Source: Verrucomicrobiota bacterium
Lineage (GTDB): Bacteria; Verrucomicrobiota; Verrucomicrobiia; Opitutales; UBA953
Assembly: GCA_015061905.1 (NCBI GenBank)
Contig: SUVQ01000004.1
Span: forward strand, 124,001-188,000
DNA: 64,000 nt
Direction of reading: 5' to 3'
Part shown: one piece after another, positions 54,101 through 61,752 of the stretch
Layout: each line of letters begins with the position of its first letter
Numbering within the stretch: the stretch's first letter is position 1
Position numbers and translations under genes: made by a program
The notes under the pieces: model-generated
Seen by the model: the letters and a program-made list of their open reading frames with translations, nothing else
What the model was told of the DNA's origin: nothing
Database searches by the model: none

Positions 54101-56464
54101 ATGAAAATACTCCGGGCGATTTTGTGGGCTTTGTGTGCGGCGTTTTGCGGAATTTCCGTGCAGGCGGGAACGTCTTTCATCCTTTCCGACAGCGTTCCCG
54201 CGCCGAAGTGGGACGAAGGCTACGGCGTCGGCAACGGAAGGCTCGGCGCGCTCACGCTCGGCGGCTTTCCGAAAGATTTGCTCGTTCTAAACGAAGCCTC
54301 GATTTTCGAACGCAAGGCAATCCACATTCCAGCAGACGTTCCCGCCGCGCTCGAAGAAGCCCGCCGCGCCTGTGAAACCGGCGACTTTGCCCGAGCCGAT
54401 GCCATTTTTCGCGAAAAAATTCTGACAAACGGCTCCATCGCCGGAAATTACCAGCAAGGCGGCTTGGTTGACATCGAATTTTTAAACGTTCCCGCTCAGA
54501 AAAATTACCGTCGCGAATTGGATTTGGAACACGGCGTCGCGAGCACGGAAATCGTTTTTGAAAACGGGAAAAAATTACGTGCGGAACTGTTCGCGTGTCC
54601 GGAGCCGGATCTCGTCGCGTATTTCGCGGAAAGCGACGTTCCCGCCGGCATCGATGCGGATTTTACGCTTCGCCATCCCGACAAAAACACGAAAATCAAA
54701 TCCTTGGGTGAAACCGTTTTTTGTATTTACGGACAGGGCGGAAACGGCGGAACGCGTTTTGAAAACTACCTGCGTTTTTTTGCCGAAGGCGGAAAAATTT
54801 CCGTCACGGGAACGAAGCTTTCCGTGCGCGGCGCAAAGAAAATTTTGCTGGTTTCCTCGACGGCGACCGATTACGACTACGTCGCCATTCCCGCGCAACG
54901 CAAGTGGCTTTGGACTCCGGCAACGAGTGCACTCGAATCCGTTTCCGGAATTTCGGATCGGGAAAAACTGCGCGATGCGACGCGCAAATATTTTTCCGAG
55001 CGCATGAATCGTTGCGTCGTCGATTTGGGCGATTCCGAGCCGGAAGTTCAAAAAATGACTACGCGGGAACGCGTCGCGCGTATGAAGCAAAATCCCGACG
55101 CGCGCGATCCCGATTTGCTCGAACAGCTTTTCCAGTTCGGGCGATTTTGCCTGATTTCGAATTCGCGCCCGGGCGCGCTCCCGTGCGGCTTGCAGGGCTT
55201 GTGGAATCCGCATTTGAACGCGGCGTGGATGGGCTGTTATTTTTTCAACATCAATTGCGAAATGAATTATTGGTGCGCGGCACCGACCGGCTTGGGCGAG
55301 TTTCACCGCGCGTTCACGGATTTTATTTTGAAACTCAAACCGAGCGGCGAAGCTTTTGCGGAGAAAATCGGACACGAGGGATTTTGCTTCGGGCACTACG
55401 CGGATTGCTTCGGCGAAACGTATTTCGCGGGAAATCACCCCGAATGGGCGGCAAGCCTGATGAACGGCGCGTGGATTTGCGCACACCTCGTTGACGCGTA
55501 TCGATTTGATAATGACAAAACACGCCTCGCCGCCGCGCTCCCGCTTCTGGAATCGAACGCGAAGTTTATTTTATCGTGGTTTAAGCCGGATCCGAAAAAT
55601 CCGGGTGAACTCGTCGCCGGCCCCGCCGTTTCGCCGGAGACGGGATTTTTCTACACGGACGCGGCGGGAACGCGCCACGCGGCTTACATTTCCACGGGAA
55701 CGGCGCACGACCAATTGCTCGGGCGCGAAGCGTTGCGCAATTATATTTTCGCCTGCGACGAACTCGGGAACCGCAACGGAAAAACTTATGCCGCCGCAAA
55801 AAAAGCGCTCCCGCAAATTCCCGCGCCGAAACTCAGCACCGACGGACGCGTGCTCGAATGGCGAGAAGATTTCGAAGAACGCCAGCCCGGACATCGCCAC
55901 GTAAGCCACCTTTACGGGCTTTTTCCCGGAAACGAATGGGACGTGCTCAACACGCCGGATTATGCCGCCGCCGTGAAAAAATCGCTCGACAAACGTCGCG
56001 CCGATCAGGAAAAGCACAAAACTCTGCACCCCGGCTGGAGCGAGGCGTGGTGGATTAATCTTTACGCGACGCTCGGCGACGGGAACGCCGCGCATGCGCT
56101 AATGAACCGCATGCTCGCTCGCTACATCAATCCGAATTTGTTCGACATTCACCCGCCGTTTCAAATCGACGGAAATTTCGGCTTCACTTCCGGCGTGGCG
56201 CAATGCCTGATTCAAAGCGGCATCGAGCGCAACGGGCGGCGTGTCGTGCAACTGCTTCCCGCGCGTGCGGACGCGTGGAAAAAAGGCTCGGCGAAAGGTT
56301 TGGTCGCACGCGGCGGCTTGAAAGTTGACATAAGCTGGGACGGAGACGAAGTCGCCGCCACGCTGACATCGACGCGCCCGGGACGCTTCACGATTCTCTG
56401 CAACGGGCGTTCCCGCGACATCGCGTTTTCCGCCGCAGGAGAAAGTGTTCGGATGCGCTTTTGA
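54101..56464 (+). CDS. GH95 family alpha-L-fucosidase, secreted
   Basis: 787 residues with a signal peptide (ILRAILWALCAAFCGISVQA). GH95 enzymes invert and release 1,2-linked fucose from milk oligosaccharides, mucins or plant glycans; some are galactosidases. N-terminal sandwich begins WDEGYGVGNGRLGALTLGG. The (alpha/alpha)6 barrel shows LQGLWNPHLNAAWMG, the Asn pair in FNINCEMNYW, the general acid region EWREDFEERQPGHRHVSHLYGLFPG (near 585) and the late QIDGNFG Asp (near 690). All catalytic regions seem present. Confidence 0.93.
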   Translation: MKILRAILWALCAAFCGISVQAGTSFILSDSVPAPKWDEGYGVGNGRLGALTLGGFPKDLLVLNEASIFERKAIHIPADVPAALEEARRACETGDFARADAIFREKILTNGSIAGNYQQGGLVDIEFLNVPAQKNYRRELDLEHGVASTEIVFENGKKLRAELFACPEPDLVAYFAESDVPAGIDADFTLRHPDKNTKIKSLGETVFCIYGQGGNGGTRFENYLRFFAEGGKISVTGTKLSVRGAKKILLVSSTATDYDYVAIPAQRKWLWTPATSALESVSGISDREKLRDATRKYFSERMNRCVVDLGDSEPEVQKMTTRERVARMKQNPDARDPDLLEQLFQFGRFCLISNSRPGALPCGLQGLWNPHLNAAWMGCYFFNINCEMNYWCAAPTGLGEFHRAFTDFILKLKPSGEAFAEKIGHEGFCFGHYADCFGETYFAGNHPEWAASLMNGAWICAHLVDAYRFDNDKTRLAAALPLLESNAKFILSWFKPDPKNPGELVAGPAVSPETGFFYTDAAGTRHAAYISTGTAHDQLLGREALRNYIFACDELGNRNGKTYAAAKKALPQIPAPKLSTDGRVLEWREDFEERQPGHRHVSHLYGLFPGNEWDVLNTPDYAAAVKKSLDKRRADQEKHKTLHPGWSEAWWINLYATLGDGNAAHALMNRMLARYINPNLFDIHPPFQIDGNFGFTSGVAQCLIQSGIERNGRRVVQLLPARADAWKKGSAKGLVARGGLKVDISWDGDEVAATLTSTRPGRFTILCNGRSRDIAFSAAGESVRMRF

Positions 56465-56538
56465 TTGCTGCGCCAAAGTGCATTCCGCCGCGCTTTTTTT
56501 TTCGACAAAAAAAATCTGTTGACTCGAAATTAAAACAT

Positions 56539-56551
56539 TACCATTTTGGTA
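56539..56551 (+). promoter_or_regulatory. Operator-like palindrome before the ABC transporter operon
   Basis: TACCA-TTT-TGGTA (extended TTACCATTTTGGTAA, 56538-56552). TTGACT at 56519-56524 is a good -35 box, but no -10 box is at standard spacing; TAAAAT at 56550 is 25 bases on. The similar site at 39268 lies within another promoter. Confidence 0.4.
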
Positions 56552-56552
56552 A

Positions 56553-56778
56553 AATATTTTTGATTTTTTATTAGAAATGACGAAACGAACTTTCAAATTT
56601 CTCGCAAATGCGAAAATGATGATGTCGATGTGTGAAATTAAAATTCGCGCCTCGGCAACGTTTTGTTGTGCATAAACCAACGATTCCGGTTTCTAAGGAG
56701 GTGCGAAAAACGTGCCTCCTTTTTTTGTATCCGAAAAATTCTTTTTTACAAAAAAACCAACGATTCAATCAAAAACAC
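56553..56778 (+). promoter_or_regulatory. Long structured leader with intrinsic terminator (possible attenuator or riboswitch)
   Basis: Within a leader of over 200 bases, AAGGAGGTGCG (56695-56705) pairs with CGTGCCTCCTT (56711-56721) using two G-T pairs around AAAAA, then seven T. It stands 52 bases before the start codon. Just before it, AAACC (56674-56678) can pair with GGTTT (56688-56692). The 12-mer AACCAACGATTC occurs on both sides of the terminator (56675-56686 and 56755-56766). No named riboswitch class was recognised. Confidence 0.55.
56695..56726 (+). terminator. Intrinsic terminator in the ABC operon leader
   Basis: Eleven-bp stem with two G-T pairs, five-A loop and a T7 run, located before rather than after a gene on this strand. 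It could serve the fucosidase transcript too, since that gene ends 230 bases upstream. Confidence 0.75.
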
Positions 56779-57828
56779 ATGAGCATAAAAAAATCCCTTA
56801 ATTCCGTTTTACTCGCTTTGCTCGCCGTTTGCGTTCCCGCAAATGCGAGCGAAGAGCTCGTTCCCGTGCGTGCCGGTTATTTACCGATAACCGGGCATGC
56901 CAAGTTTTTCATCGCCCGGGAGGAAGGCTTTTTCAGAGACGAAGGCTTGGCGGTAACGCTTGTTGAATTTTCCAACTCGGCGGACGGGCTTGCCGCCTTG
57001 CGTGCGAAAAAACTGGATGTTGCCGCCTTCGGAACCTCGGCACCGCTTCTGCATGCTTCGCGCGGTGCGGATTTGCGGATTATCGGCGGCGTGATGGGGG
57101 AAGATGCCGCGATTTTTACAACGAAGAAAAACGCGGAAACGCTAAAAAGCATTGCCGATTTAAAAGGAAAAAAAATCGCGACGGTGCGCCTTTCCAGCGG
57201 GGACGCGATTTTGCGCGGCGCGCTTTCCGAGGCAGGTTTGGATTGGAAAAAAGATGTGCGCCTTTTCGAACTGAAAAATCCGCCGGCGGTTCAGGAAGCT
57301 GTGCGCACGGGGCAGGTCGATGCCGGAATTACTTGGGGCCCTTACGATATCCGTGCGGAGCAGGCGGGGCTTTTCGTTGCCGTGCGCAGCCGGGAACTTT
57401 ATCCGGGGCATCCGTGCTGCAGGCTTACGGTTAATACTTCTTCCGTAAAAAATAATCCGCAGGTTTGGATAAAGTTTCTTCGCGCTTTTTTGAAGGCGGA
57501 AAAATTTGCACGGACACACCGTGAAAAAACCGTCGAGCATATTCAAAAATATTTTGAAATAGACGCAGAGACGATTTATCGCGGGTTTTACGAAGGTTTT
57601 CTCGACCAAACGACGGATCCGAATCTGCACGGACTTGAAGCTTTTTGGAAAGCGATTCGCAGTAGCGGTTTTGCCACCAAAGATATAAATGTTGCCGAGA
57701 TCGTTGATGTCGAACTTTACGGGCAGGCTCTCAAAAGCCTGATTGAGGAAGACCCGAGTGAGCCGTTTTGGAAAGAACTTCAAAGCGTTTTCAAACAGCG
57801 AAATTTTCCCCGACCGAACGCAAATTAA
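56779..57828 (+). CDS. ABC transporter substrate-binding protein (SsuA/TauA/NMT1-like)
   Basis: 349 residues with a signal peptide (SVLLALLAVCVPANA). The fold is that of SsuA/TauA/ThiY-type binding proteins: RAGYLPITGHAKFFIAREEG, VEFSNSADGLAALRAKKLDV, then ADLKGKKIATVRLSSGDAIL and GITWGPYDIRAEQ. Ligands in the family are sulfonates, nitrate or bicarbonate, aromatic acids or pyrimidines; sequence alone does not decide. ATG 56779 starts the signal peptide. ATPase, permease and CoA-transferase genes follow directly. Confidence 0.85.
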   Translation: MSIKKSLNSVLLALLAVCVPANASEELVPVRAGYLPITGHAKFFIAREEGFFRDEGLAVTLVEFSNSADGLAALRAKKLDVAAFGTSAPLLHASRGADLRIIGGVMGEDAAIFTTKKNAETLKSIADLKGKKIATVRLSSGDAILRGALSEAGLDWKKDVRLFELKNPPAVQEAVRTGQVDAGITWGPYDIRAEQAGLFVAVRSRELYPGHPCCRLTVNTSSVKNNPQVWIKFLRAFLKAEKFARTHREKTVEHIQKYFEIDAETIYRGFYEGFLDQTTDPNLHGLEAFWKAIRSSGFATKDINVAEIVDVELYGQALKSLIEEDPSEPFWKELQSVFKQRNFPRPNAN

Positions 57829-57840
57829 TTCGTTAAAAAA

Positions 57841-58686
57841 ATGAACGAAAAAACATCATCTCGCGAAACGCGGGAACGCGATGCAATCCGCATCGAAAAC
57901 CTCCGTTTCTCCTACGGCGAAAAAACAGTGTTGCGAGACATTAATTTGCGCGTCCGCAGCGGCGAATTTGTTTCTTTGCTTGGTGCGAGCGGGAGCGGGA
58001 AAACAACGCTTTTGCGCCTGATTGCCGGCTTGGAAAAACCGACTGCGGGGCGCGTTTTTGACCACGAAAATCCGGTCGGGAAACCGTCCCTGCAACGCAG
58101 TTTCGTTTTTCAAAATTATTCGCTGTTCCCATGGTTTTCCTTGCGTGAAAACATCGCCCTGGCGATAAAAAAGGCGCATCCGGCACTTAGCGGGGCGGAG
58201 CGGCGCAGCTTGGCGGAAACGTATTTGGAGCAGGTCGGCTTAGCGGATGCGGCAAAAAAATATCCCTTCGAGCTCTCCGGCGGGATGCAGCAGCGCGGAG
58301 CAATCGCGCGGGCGTTGGCAATCGGCGCTCCCGTGTTGCTGATGGACGAGCCGTTCGGCGCGCTGGATCCCGTGAACCGTTCGCGCCTGCAGGACTTGTT
58401 GCTTTCGGTTTGGCGAAATGCTTCGGCGGATGCCAAAACCGTCATTTTCGTCACTCACGATGTCGACGAAGCAATATTGTTGAGCGACCGCATCGTCATG
58501 CTCGGCTCTTCGCCGGCGGGAATTATCGACGAAATTTGCGTCGATATTCCGCGTCCGCGTTCCCGCCTGTCGGTTGAAAATACCGAAGTTTTTTCGCGAT
58601 TGCGTGAGCGGATTCAAAAGCGTTTCCGGGACGAAATAAACCGCGCGCTCGGCGGAATCGTCAGCGGCGGCGGGGACGGAATTTAA
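57841..58686 (+). CDS. ABC transporter ATPase (SsuB/TauB-like)
   Basis: 281 residues. Walker A GASGSGKTTLL, Q-loop VFQNYSLFPW, signature ELSGGMQQRGAIARAL, Walker B VLLMDEPFGALD and switch FVTHDVDEAI are all intact. The FPW after the Q-loop and the long C-terminal tail fit the SsuB/TauB group. It is 12 bases after the binding protein gene and 33 before the permease. Confidence 0.93.
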   Translation: MNEKTSSRETRERDAIRIENLRFSYGEKTVLRDINLRVRSGEFVSLLGASGSGKTTLLRLIAGLEKPTAGRVFDHENPVGKPSLQRSFVFQNYSLFPWFSLRENIALAIKKAHPALSGAERRSLAETYLEQVGLADAAKKYPFELSGGMQQRGAIARALAIGAPVLLMDEPFGALDPVNRSRLQDLLLSVWRNASADAKTVIFVTHDVDEAILLSDRIVMLGSSPAGIIDEICVDIPRPRSRLSVENTEVFSRLRERIQKRFRDEINRALGGIVSGGGDGI

Positions 58687-58719: not shown

Positions 58720-59490
58720 ATGAAAAAGAGTATTGTATCTGTTTTTTCAATACGCAAAAAAGAGGGCTGGTTGTTTTTGCTCGGGCTTTTTTGCTTGTGG
58801 AGCATTGCTTCGACACAATTCTCGTTTGACGCGGATTACCTGTTCCCGACACCGAAAGAGGTCTGGCTCGCTCTTCGAGACTCTCTTCCCGAGCTTTGGG
58901 CGGGAACGCTCTCGTCGTTTTGCATCTTGCTTCCGGCGTTTTTGGCGGCGATTTTTTCCGGAACGGTGCTCGGAATTCTCGCGGGAACGACGCCGTGGGT
59001 AGGGCGGCTTTTGAGTCCGTTTTCGCGCTTTGCGGCTCCGATTCCGACGACGATTTACATTCCGTATGCGATTGCGCTTCTTCCGGGCTTTGATACGGCG
59101 GCGGGCTTCGTCATTTTCATCGGTGCGTTTTGGCCGATATTTTTAAACGCGATGGCGGGCGCAAATCATTTGCCTGCGCATTTTCGCGAAAACGCGCAAA
59201 CACTTGAGCTCGGCGCGTTAGAGTATCGGCTGAAAATTGTTCTTCCGGGAGCGTTACCGCATATCTTTTCGGGAATCGGAATCGGGCTTGTATTTTCTTT
59301 CATTTTGCTGACGGTTGCGGAGCTTTTCGGCGCGTCTTCGGGGCTTGGTCGCTTTGTTCAACTTTCTGCCGATTATGCGGAATACACGCGCATGGTGGCG
59401 GGAATTTTTTACGTGGGCGGCGTCGTGTTTCTTTGCAGTGCGTTTCTCGATTTTCTTAAACATCGCATTATTTTTTGGAAAAAATCATGA
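58720..59490 (+). CDS. ABC transporter permease (SsuC/TauC-like)
   Basis: 256 residues with six membrane helices. The EAA loop is present as LELGALEYRLKIVLPGALPHIFSG. LFPTPKEVWLALRDSLPELW is the usual start of the BPD_transp_1 domain in this family. Its stop overlaps the next gene's start by four bases (ATGA). Confidence 0.92.
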   Translation: MKKSIVSVFSIRKKEGWLFLLGLFCLWSIASTQFSFDADYLFPTPKEVWLALRDSLPELWAGTLSSFCILLPAFLAAIFSGTVLGILAGTTPWVGRLLSPFSRFAAPIPTTIYIPYAIALLPGFDTAAGFVIFIGAFWPIFLNAMAGANHLPAHFRENAQTLELGALEYRLKIVLPGALPHIFSGIGIGLVFSFILLTVAELFGASSGLGRFVQLSADYAEYTRMVAGIFYVGGVVFLCSAFLDFLKHRIIFWKKS

Positions 59491-60632
59491 GTTCTGAAAT
59501 TTTTAATAAATTGATTCGCCTTGAAGAGGCGGTGCGGCGGTTCACGCATGACGGACAGCAAATTGCGACGAACGGGCTTCCGGTCGGCGCGGAGCCGGTG
59601 GCGTTCGCGCGGGAGTTGATTCGCCAAAACCGCAAAAATCTGCATGTCGTCAGCACTTGCGCTTCTTCGGCACTGAATTTGCTTTGCGCTGCGGGAGCCG
59701 TTTCCAAAATGGAAGGCGGCTTTTCGGGGCTTGAAGTTTTCGGGTTTTCGAACGGAATCCGTCGAGCGGTGGAAAGCGGGAATGCGGTTTGGGAGGATTA
59801 TTCCAACCTTGCAATGCCCTTGCGCTTTCTTGCCGGCGCATTGAATTTGCCGTTTTTCCCGGCGAGGATTTGCATCGGCTCGGACATTGAGCGGAGTGCT
59901 TTGGGCGAAAACACGGGAACGCCGAAAATTCCGCGCGTGCGCGATCCGTTTTCCGGAAATGAACTCGGCGCGCTTTCGCCGCTTTCTCCGGAGCTGGCGG
60001 TCATTTACGTGCCTTTTGCGGATGCTGCCGGGAACGCAATTATTCTCGGCTCGGAGTGGTGCAGCGTGGAGCTTTCGCGTGCCGCGAAAAAACTGATAAT
60101 CGTCGCCGAGCATATTGTGAGCGCGGACTGCATTCGCCAATATCCGAACTTGGTTCGCATTCCCGCAGAAATCGTTGACGCCGTTACGTGGACGCCGCTC
60201 GGCGCTTGGCCGAACGGCTCCGCAGGCTTATATGACGCGGATGACGCGCATATTTTTGAAATGAATGCGGCGTTAAAAACGGAGGCGGGAACGCAGGCGT
60301 ATCTCGAAAAATACGTTTATCCGTCGGAAACGGCGGGCGCGCTTCGGGAACGCATCGGGCGTATCGCTCGCCGGCATTATTTTTCAACGCTTCGCATTAA
60401 AGATATTCTGTTTGAGCTGCGCGCCGGGCACACACACGCCAAGTGGGAAATCCCGGGCAACGCTCCCGCGCATTATCTGAAAATGCTTTCCAGCGAACGC
60501 CGCAACAACGAGAAGCAAGTTTGGGAGCAAATCGGCAAAACACCCAATCACTTTTTCGACTGCGAAGTGATGAACGTTTGCGCCGCACTCATGCTCGGAC
60601 TCGTCGGCGCGCAGGAAGGCGAAAGCGGGTAG
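59487..60632 (+). CDS. CoA-transferase, A-subunit type (GctA-like), without a B subunit
   Basis: 381 residues from the ATG at 59487, which overlaps the permease stop. GctA-like features: EEAVRRFTHDGQQIATNGLP, PVAFARELIRQNRKNLHVVS, and AVIYVPFADAAGNAIILGSEW with LIIVAEHIVSADCIRQ. In this family the catalytic Glu sits in the B subunit, and none is encoded nearby. The gene is translationally coupled to an ABC importer, suggesting the imported acid is made into a CoA ester. Substrate unknown. Confidence 0.75.
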   Translation: MSSEIFNKLIRLEEAVRRFTHDGQQIATNGLPVGAEPVAFARELIRQNRKNLHVVSTCASSALNLLCAAGAVSKMEGGFSGLEVFGFSNGIRRAVESGNAVWEDYSNLAMPLRFLAGALNLPFFPARICIGSDIERSALGENTGTPKIPRVRDPFSGNELGALSPLSPELAVIYVPFADAAGNAIILGSEWCSVELSRAAKKLIIVAEHIVSADCIRQYPNLVRIPAEIVDAVTWTPLGAWPNGSAGLYDADDAHIFEMNAALKTEAGTQAYLEKYVYPSETAGALRERIGRIARRHYFSTLRIKDILFELRAGHTHAKWEIPGNAPAHYLKMLSSERRNNEKQVWEQIGKTPNHFFDCEVMNVCAALMLGLVGAQEGESG

Positions 60633-60694: not shown

Positions 60695-60727
60695 AACCAC
60701 GATGAGGGTCGCTTCCCCATCGTGGTT
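60695..60727. other. Strong stem-loop at the edge of the phage-like region
   Basis: AACCACGATG (60695-60704) pairs with CATCGTGGTT (60718-60727), continued inside by GGG/CCC. The run after it is TCTTTCC, not a T-run, so it may be a weak terminator of the CoA-transferase transcript. Confidence 0.55.
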
Positions 60728-60913: not shown

Positions 60914-61099
60914 ATGCACAAAGAAAAAACAGTTCGCGGGCGACCGTTCGGGAACAAAAACGCAGCGAAACCGCAAGAGCAACACCGCATACTTTTCGCG
61001 GCATCCGTAGCTCCGGAAACGCTTGCGAAAATCAAAGCCTATGCGCAAGCCCACGGCGTAAGTATCGGCAAAGCCATTGACGCGTTAATTTTACGCTAA
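60914..61099 (+). CDS. Small basic phage-region protein, ribbon-helix-helix-like
   Basis: 61 residues from the ATG at 60914. AGGAG at 60901-60905 is eight bases before this ATG, while it is too close to the ATG at 60908. The N-terminus is basic with GRPFGNKNAAK, common in small phage DNA-binding proteins; the C-terminus SVAPETLAKIKAYAQAHGVS looks like a ribbon-helix-helix or related helix pair. Stops of this and the next, convergent, gene overlap. Confidence 0.6.
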   Translation: MHKEKTVRGRPFGNKNAAKPQEQHRILFAASVAPETLAKIKAYAQAHGVSIGKAIDALILR

Positions 61100-61617
61100 G
61101 CCCGTTCCCGCTCCCCTTCGTGGATGCGGGCAAGGAGTTTGTGGAATTTTTTTTGAGCGTCCTCGAACTCATCGACGGAGTTTGTATCTTCCACAAAAAT
61201 TTTGAAAACCTGTTGGCGTATTCTTGAGTAAAACGCCTGCCATTCGGCTTTAACGGTTTCAGCCGGAATTACCGTTTTTTCCAGGATTTCGAGTTCGAGT
61301 TGCTCTTTTTGGAGGCGAACGCGTTCCCGTTCCAATCGCACTTTTGAGAGTTCACCCTTGGTTTCTTCGGGGATATCGTCCTCTTTTATTTCTTCGTAAA
61401 AAGCTCTCCACGCTTCGAGCGGATAGGAACCGTTTGCGGTTTTCCCGGGATTACCGGGCAGTTTCAACAATCGGGCGACGGTTCGGCGTGAAATTCCGCC
61501 AAGTTCCTGAGCGAGCTCTTCCTGAGAGCGTGCGAATTTCCGCACGCTCGCGTTCCCGTAATCGAGCGTAAGAGGCGGCACATCCGTTGCCGCCGGTATG
61601 GAATGATAAAAAGACAT
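61096..61617 (-). CDS. Phage terminase small subunit-like protein (Nu1/DUF1441-like)
   Basis: 173 residues from the ATG at 61617. A helix-turn-helix near residues 33-55 (SQEELAQELGGISRRTVARL) is followed by NGSYPLEAWRAFYEE and a long charged helix (KVRLERERVRLQKEQLELEI), the layout of Nu1-type DNA packaging proteins. It lies on the strand opposite to the other phage genes and no large terminase subunit follows in either direction. An upstream ATG at 61719 adds 34 basic residues and is less likely. Confidence 0.6.
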   Translation of the reverse strand: MSFYHSIPAATDVPPLTLDYGNASVRKFARSQEELAQELGGISRRTVARLLKLPGNPGKTANGSYPLEAWRAFYEEIKEDDIPEETKGELSKVRLERERVRLQKEQLELEILEKTVIPAETVKAEWQAFYSRIRQQVFKIFVEDTNSVDEFEDAQKKFHKLLARIHEGERERA

Positions 61618-61752
61618 CTCTCTAAAAAGAGCGAAAAAGCAATCTTTTATTTTTTTTGAAAATTTGTTTTCCCTGATAAATAAAGGCTTCCGCGCCCGAA
61701 ACGCACGATAACCGCGCAATCATACATTGCTTTTTCGCACAGAGTTAAAGCG

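Follow-up and report, generated by a model that had tools for sequence, protein, structure and literature searches.

Ribosome-mediated attenuators such as those of the enterobacterial trp, his and leu operons combine a short ORF, whose control codons lie in RNA segment 1, with the successive pairings 1:2, 2:3 and 3:4 ahead of the operon. Leaders associated with sulfur include metL of Streptomyces lividans TK24, which precedes metNIQ and contains Met and Cys codons (MSTTSDRTPATEATTTPGARCMCRRMCAF; PMC8079986), and, in Rhodobacterales, the uORFC-8-2 motif upstream of cysS, which has tandem Cys codons, two stems and a U run and for which ribosome-mediated attenuation was proposed (PMC8632094). Also described are the polycysteine short ORFs before mycobacterial sulfur genes (Canestrari 2020, as cited in PMC13236596) and the Cys-rich ORFs before sulfur genes in actinobacterial cys-operon leaders (PMC1262725), as well as an attenuator family of Firmicutes, the ABC-leader, which in bacilli precedes an alkanesulfonate transporter operon (PMC2965389). 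Attenuators with Met codons appear to be rare, the one example described in the papers examined being that of PMC8079986. A search of the open-access literature, covering titles and the openings of abstracts, gave no report of leader-peptide attenuation for Verrucomicrobiota.

The leader considered here lies in a 64,000-nucleotide stretch of verrucomicrobial DNA, which we call the window. It occupies the interval 56553-56778, between a GH95 fucosidase gene (54101-56464), which is upstream and on the same strand, and an ABC importer operon that starts at 56779. The fold of this 226-nt stretch beats 200 of 200 shuffles (z -4.5). With considerable confidence, and on the strength of comparative and folding models, we interpret it as a ribosome-mediated, trp-type transcription attenuator upstream of an organosulfur importer operon, which would sense charged Met-tRNA and probably Cys-tRNA; of the two amino acids we lean towards Met as the principal signal. 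Three of the four leader-bearing genomes match MAGs labelled "Opitutales bacterium" from the rectum of sheep, water deer and goat, and the organism is thus a ruminant-gut member of the Verrucomicrobiota.

Homologues of the leader were sought by DNA, by a peptide profile and by an RNA model. The window's own assembly (G000), searched with 401 leader bases, contains a second copy (G000:C10:41938-42079, minus strand) that is 77% identical over window positions 56609-56747, comes after rbfA and precedes a Porin_O_P/Porin_4 gene. In total there are seven leaders in four of the eight genus genomes examined: two each in G000, G007 and G004, and one in G005. Four of them are importer-type (window, G007, G005 and G004) and three porin-type (G000, G004 and G007), and the importer binding protein is present in exactly the four leader-bearing genomes. 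The G005 orthologue of the porin gene (L046, G005:C40:11556-12725; 82% identical), which lies behind an rbfA-like ORF, is without a leader, so the attenuator was apparently gained or lost at the porin locus within the genus.

The distribution of the leader appears to be narrow. The first DNA search gave matches in 8 of 95 genomes, four of which (E 0.0026-0.0094) were judged to be due to chance. Among 183 relatives the peptide profile found seven strong places in four genomes, with E up to 3.5e-16, as well as 13 weak places (E 0.0125-0.097), and among 387 genomes of the phylum four strong places in two genomes and eight weak ones (E 0.0017-0.028). None of the 18 weak places inspected, out of 21 (all except L020, L024 and L027), is leader-like, with the reservation that the frame may be misplaced at the short loci L019 and L029. 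The RNA model returned the seven known places, and no others, over the 183 relatives; no convincing leader outside the four genus genomes was found among these relatives or the 387 phylum genomes. Moreover, none was seen before the other sulfhydrylase-type gene of G000, G004 and G005, and inspection by eye noticed no Met-run ORF upstream of the gene for a binding-protein homologue from Desulfovibrio (L038, 49%).

The leader ORF (MTKRTFKFLANAKMMMSMCEIKIRASATFCCA; 56577..56675, plus strand), which the sequence-only reading of this region had overlooked, has 32 codons followed by TAA. Its start and stop are the same, and the frame is open, in all seven homologues (31-32 codons), the sole indel being one in-frame 3-nt deletion; the region behind the stop codon, unlike the frame, is full of indels in the seven leaders. 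The stop codon itself invariably ends 19-24 nt 5' of the terminator stem. The other leader groups differ from the window leader at 27-32 of 99 bases and the frame is still intact in all seven leaders. In neutral simulations the start, stop and frame survived in 4-7% of cases per lineage, or in 27-31% when the 50 invariant columns were frozen; taken alone, frame conservation would count as moderate evidence. There is no Shine-Dalgarno motif at the leader ORF, nor at eight other gene starts read in the window.

The putative control codons are codons 14-19 (56616..56633, plus strand), which read Met Met Met Ser Met Cys. Met14, Met16 and Met18 are invariant in the seven leaders and Met15 is found in six of them, while Cys19 occurs in four, namely the importer-type ones; the peptide of the porin copy in the window's genome is MNKNKAILFAAAKMMMPMRDVKILASATLCCV. 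Such a cluster of four Met within five codons is unique among the 310 short ATG ORFs of the window, and the chance of finding one anywhere in 31 codons is about 5e-6, an estimate that uses the Met frequency of seven window genes (1.4%). One could imagine that such an ORF encodes a working small protein, or that it senses any translational slow-down, with no specificity for Met or Cys. Termination in the absence of translation is indeed a general property of leaders with a 1:2 pairing, and successive AUG codons might have an effect on ribosome initiation sites as well, both of which count in favor of these possibilities. However, the control codons agree with the sulfur-related function of the operon, and pN/pS is near 1 over the leader, codons 14-32 included, so selection does not preserve the amino acid sequence itself as it would in a protein. 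We consider this pair of possibilities extremely unlikely, and retain the attenuator that responds to sulfur amino acids.

The pairings expected of such an attenuator can all be drawn on the plus strand of the window. Segment 1 (56623..56636), the 5' arm of the 1:2 protector, overlaps codons 16-20. Segment 2 (56644..56657) is the 3' arm of the protector, and its first 10 nt (56644-56653) are also the 5' arm of the antiterminator; the stop codon of the leader ORF begins 16 nt past its last base. The 1:2 hairpin (56623-56636/56644-56657) has 13 bp and a predicted energy of -14.6 kcal/mol. Segment 3 (56698..56707), the 3' arm of the 2:3 antiterminator, overlaps the 5' arm of the terminator, and in the window leader its duplex with segment 2 has 10 bp (-18.6 kcal/mol). 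Finally, the intrinsic 3:4 terminator with its U run spans 56695..56726: the stem (56695-56721) has 11 bp and a 5-nt loop (-16.6 kcal/mol), and the T run is at 56720-56726. A sequence-only reading of this region had already noticed the 11-bp stem with its seven Ts, and it stands as described. In full folds the start of the ORF (56577-56587) also pairs with its end (56659-56669), enclosing the 1:2 hairpin; the register of this pairing differs among the leaders, and the A-rich and U-rich ends may produce it by chance, or it may account for the invariance of Cys30.

A terminator with at least seven U lies between the leader ORF and the first structural gene in all seven leaders, and the mutually exclusive 1:2, 2:3 and 3:4 pairings are kept in every one of the aligned leaders, although their terminators differ. 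Structure upstream of the orthologues, which the sequence-only reading had made the test of its proposal, is thus present. The three leader groups correspond to three terminator types, in each of which the 5' arm fits segment 2; in the porin-type leaders a change of CGC to CUC in segment 2 is matched by GAG in segment 3. Shuffled versions of segment 3 equalled the 2:3 duplex in 0, 0, 0, 3, 5, 5 and 0 cases per 2000 for the seven leaders (0 for the window). Standard pairs occupy 85 of the 91 cells of the 1:2 hairpin over the seven leaders, a proportion that drops to 32-48% if the partner is shifted by 1-3 columns, and one of its pairs (col49-col79) is found as U-G, C-G and U-A. In the covariation test that the sequence-only reading had proposed as a check, the score for 1:2 is not above that of column shuffles (289 of 500 as high). 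With only three distinct sequence groups covariation is thin, and by itself this result proves little. A leader that keeps its frame, control codons and RNA pairing but not its peptide sequence fits an attenuator better than a small protein or an arrest peptide.

To fold the seven leaders in a translated state, we masked a ribosome-sized stretch and ended the RNA just past the 5' arm of the terminator. Without a ribosome, 1:2 forms at 0.81-0.97 in all seven, and in none of them does 2:3 exceed 0.16. With Met18 in the A site, 2:3 forms at 0.80-0.97, again in all seven, and with codon 19 in the A site at 0.84-0.97, except in G005 (0.27). The folds thus predict that a ribosome waiting on the Met codons frees segment 2 for the antiterminator. 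When the ribosome is at codons 30/31 (the mask for the Cys30 position having codon 30 in the P site), neither 1:2 nor 2:3 forms. A ribosome stalled at these codons (Cys/Cys or Cys/Arg) would hide segment 2, a state that favors termination, and the late Cys codons are consequently a misfit for a switch turned on by Cys starvation. Two further results bear on the model. Once the full terminator is out, 3:4 wins at equilibrium even in the stalled state in six of the seven leaders, the exception being G004b with 2:3 at 0.70; the attenuator model therefore depends on kinetics. In addition, when the ribosome is placed on the stop codon 2:3 reaches 0.85-0.97, which taken alone would wrongly predict read-through; presumably either 1:2 closes behind the moving ribosome or release is fast, and each of these would reconcile the fold with the model.

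A nascent-peptide arrest mechanism, in which the leader peptide would sense a sulfur metabolite in the exit tunnel and stall the ribosome so as to work the same RNA switch, could account for the invariance of four residues besides Met (A12, A25, S26 and C30). Yet a pN/pS near 1 is unlike what a sequence-specific arrest peptide would give, and A25 and S26 fall in segment 2, where synonymous changes are lacking too, so that RNA pairing explains both residues. Moreover, arrest near the C-terminus would place the ribosome over segment 2, and transcription would stop. We regard this mechanism as unlikely.

In the trp-type attenuator that we favor, leader RNA would start at a promoter just upstream and its 32 codons, whose frame is conserved, would be translated by a ribosome. 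When Met and Cys are plentiful, or when there is no translation, the in silico pairings predict that 1:2 forms, that segment 3 stays free and that the 3:4 terminator stops transcription. When charged Met-tRNA is scarce, the ribosome would be held up within codons 14-18, or on Cys19 where the leader is of the importer type, and would cover segment 1, whereupon, as the same folds suggest, 2:3 would form before segment 4 is made and the polymerase would read into the importer genes. Translation, termination and the starvation response of the leader are all things that we infer from these models.

Quite another possibility is that the terminator belongs to a small-molecule riboswitch, turned on by its ligand, whose aptamer would be a three-way junction made of the 2:3 stem and two small hairpins. 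Positions 56645-56712 do fold as a three-way junction (-21.4 kcal/mol). One of its elements is an AAACC/GGTTT hairpin just before the terminator (56674..56692, plus strand, with AAACC at 56674-56678), which the sequence-only reading had proposed and which does form in predicted folds. Nevertheless, it is found only in the importer leaders of the window and G007; since the inner hairpins are not conserved, the junction was rejected as an aptamer. The spacer between segments 2 and 3 varies in length and sequence among the three groups, the homologues have no conserved aptamer core, which led us to reject a riboswitch of any kind, including a new class, and the ORF with its Met run would be left unexplained. 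The earlier failure to fit the common riboswitch classes is borne out by Rfam, none of whose 4227 families, riboswitches and T-boxes among them, reaches its gathering score anywhere in the window; at E up to 10 the best sub-threshold match has E = 0.08 (22.3 bits against a cut-off of 100), and those to SQ2397, RmaA and sno/sRNA families, far below their cut-offs, were rejected. A riboswitch is therefore a very improbable explanation, and the attenuator is again preferred.

The small hairpin contains the first copy of a repeat, reported in the sequence-only reading as a 12-mer on either side of the terminator, 80 bases apart. The repeat is present and is in fact a 13-mer (AAACCAACGATTC; 56674-56686 and 56754-56766), whose second copy (56754..56766, plus strand) is not conserved. 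At one mismatch or fewer it occurs at these two places only in the 64-kb window, against 0.29 expected, and two or more occurrences turned up in 5 of 100 shuffles. The pair is confined to the window locus and the importer locus of G007, where the binding protein is 98% identical, and the 13-mer matches in 9 of 76 loci all belong to one or the other of these. It had been suggested that the two copies compete for one partner. With five of the seven leaders lacking the pair, the mechanism cannot center on it, and we have rejected it as the switch. What survives of that proposal, a structured switch before an ABC importer, is a conditional terminator with two competing conformations; the real competitors are segment 2 and the 3' arm of the terminator, both for the terminator's 5' arm, and in all likelihood it is a translating ribosome that works the switch. 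The small hairpin and the repeat are real but incidental to the conserved mechanism.

Considering the position of the fucosidase gene, upstream and on the same strand, the hairpin could be thought simply to end the fucosidase transcript, with all the rest a coincidence. There are two terminator-like sites in 56400-56850, where shuffles lead one to expect 0.7, and the weaker of them (56475-56496), just 3' of the fucosidase gene, would serve that gene as a terminator of its own. The leader unit, moreover, stands behind three different upstream genes, GH95 in G000 and G007, DUF1015 in G005 and G004, and rbfA at the porin gene, which disfavors the condition under which the sequence-only reading would have given up its switch. 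Leader and importer occur together in four of four genomes, and a TTGAC lies 46-59 nt 5' of the leader ATG in all seven homologues. In the window this is TTGACT (56519..56524, plus strand), the likely -35 element of a promoter belonging to the leader, although a strict sigma-70 scan finds no full promoter there. Of all the readings weighed here, a plain fucosidase terminator is the least probable. A long frame (56632-57828) that crosses the terminator and enters the binding-protein gene was likewise dismissed as a chance one, being broken in G007 and G005.

The genes that the attenuator would control begin with a substrate-binding protein of the NMT1_2/SsuA-like type (56779..57828; Pfam PF13379, E 1e-32), followed by an ABC ATPase of the nitrate/taurine/sulfonate type (57841..58686) and an ABC permease (58720..59490), all on the plus strand. 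The binding protein scores 144 bits against TIGR01728 (SsuA_fam), below the cut-off of 163.5, and is thus related to that family but not equivalent to it. The nearest solved sequences are those of nitrate transport proteins and of 2x26, a binding protein for aliphatic sulfonates, and a sulfonate is a plausible substrate. The next gene (59487..60632, plus strand) encodes a CoA-transferase alpha subunit (PF01144, residues 10-232) whose C-terminus is replaced, by fusion in frame, with the C-terminal portion of the large subunit of a phage terminase (PF20454, residues 313-371; phrog_15); the intact protein of G007 has 338 aa. Beyond 60632 there are terminase small-subunit (61096-61719, minus strand) and portal genes, and a strong-looking hairpin (60695-60727; AACCACGATGAGGG...CCCCATCGTGGTT) lies between the operon remnant and these phage genes. 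The fusion is either a prophage or recombination scar or a join made in the assembly of the MAG. The CoA-transferase beta subunit, part of the operon in G007, was not found in G000 at E 1e-10, and the phage may have cut the importer operon of G000 short, or part of it may have gone missing during assembly.

In G005 and G004 the distal genes of the operon encode CoA-transferase alpha and beta, enoyl-CoA hydratase, O-acetylhomoserine sulfhydrylase and a CoA-binding protein (L070, L071), by family scans run on the G005 proteins; the G005 sulfhydrylase scores 577 bits against TIGR01326 (cut-off 495). The gene string of G007 has all of these except the sulfhydrylase (MetY), and no full-length PF01053 protein was found in that genome. 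Thus, the SsuA-like importer is present in all four genomes with an importer-type leader, and MetY is in the operon of two of them. From its gene content the G005/G004 operon could import an organosulfur acid, activate it with CoA, release its sulfur and capture this in homocysteine or methionine, a reading that makes Met and Cys control codons sensible. Our literature search did not find such a gene string described. PF01507 exceeds its cut-off only marginally, and in one of the eight genus genomes, so that there is no clear PAPS reductase.

The copy at the porin locus would allow outer- and inner-membrane uptake to be co-regulated without a regulatory protein. Carried further, this suggests a regulator-free sulfur regulon, in which one Met/Cys attenuator was copied to the unlinked porin and importer loci, only the stalling of ribosomes on Met codons sets uptake across both membranes, and the module moves between genomic sites together with the importer operon; we see the arguments for and against this wider picture as evenly balanced. 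With the leader as an attenuator, trp-type control would be extended to sulfur amino acids in a further phylum, the importer would gain a functional hint and the attenuator would have been duplicated into a two-locus regulon.

With respect to the classical systems, the window leader has the same architecture as the enterobacterial trp, his and leu attenuators. It differs from them in using Met and Cys codons and in matching no Rfam family, and its stop codon lies past segment 2, whereas that of trpL lies between segments 1 and 2. It resembles metL in having Met and Cys codons before a sulfur-type importer; according to its description, however, metL is leaderless, has no typical intrinsic terminator and belongs to another phylum, with another peptide and another importer family (PMC8079986). 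The uORFC-8-2 motif is unlike the window leader in relying on Cys only, controlling a cysteinyl-tRNA synthetase and occurring in Alphaproteobacteria (PMC8632094). The polycysteine ORFs and cys-operon leaders are described as translational or as lacking a terminator hairpin and have their Cys runs near the stop codon, again unlike the window leader (PMC13236596, PMC1262725). The ABC-leader of bacilli shares with it a premature terminator before a sulfonate-type ABC importer (PMC2965389). What is uncommon in the present leader is its Met run and its existence in two copies, one at the importer and the other at the porin.
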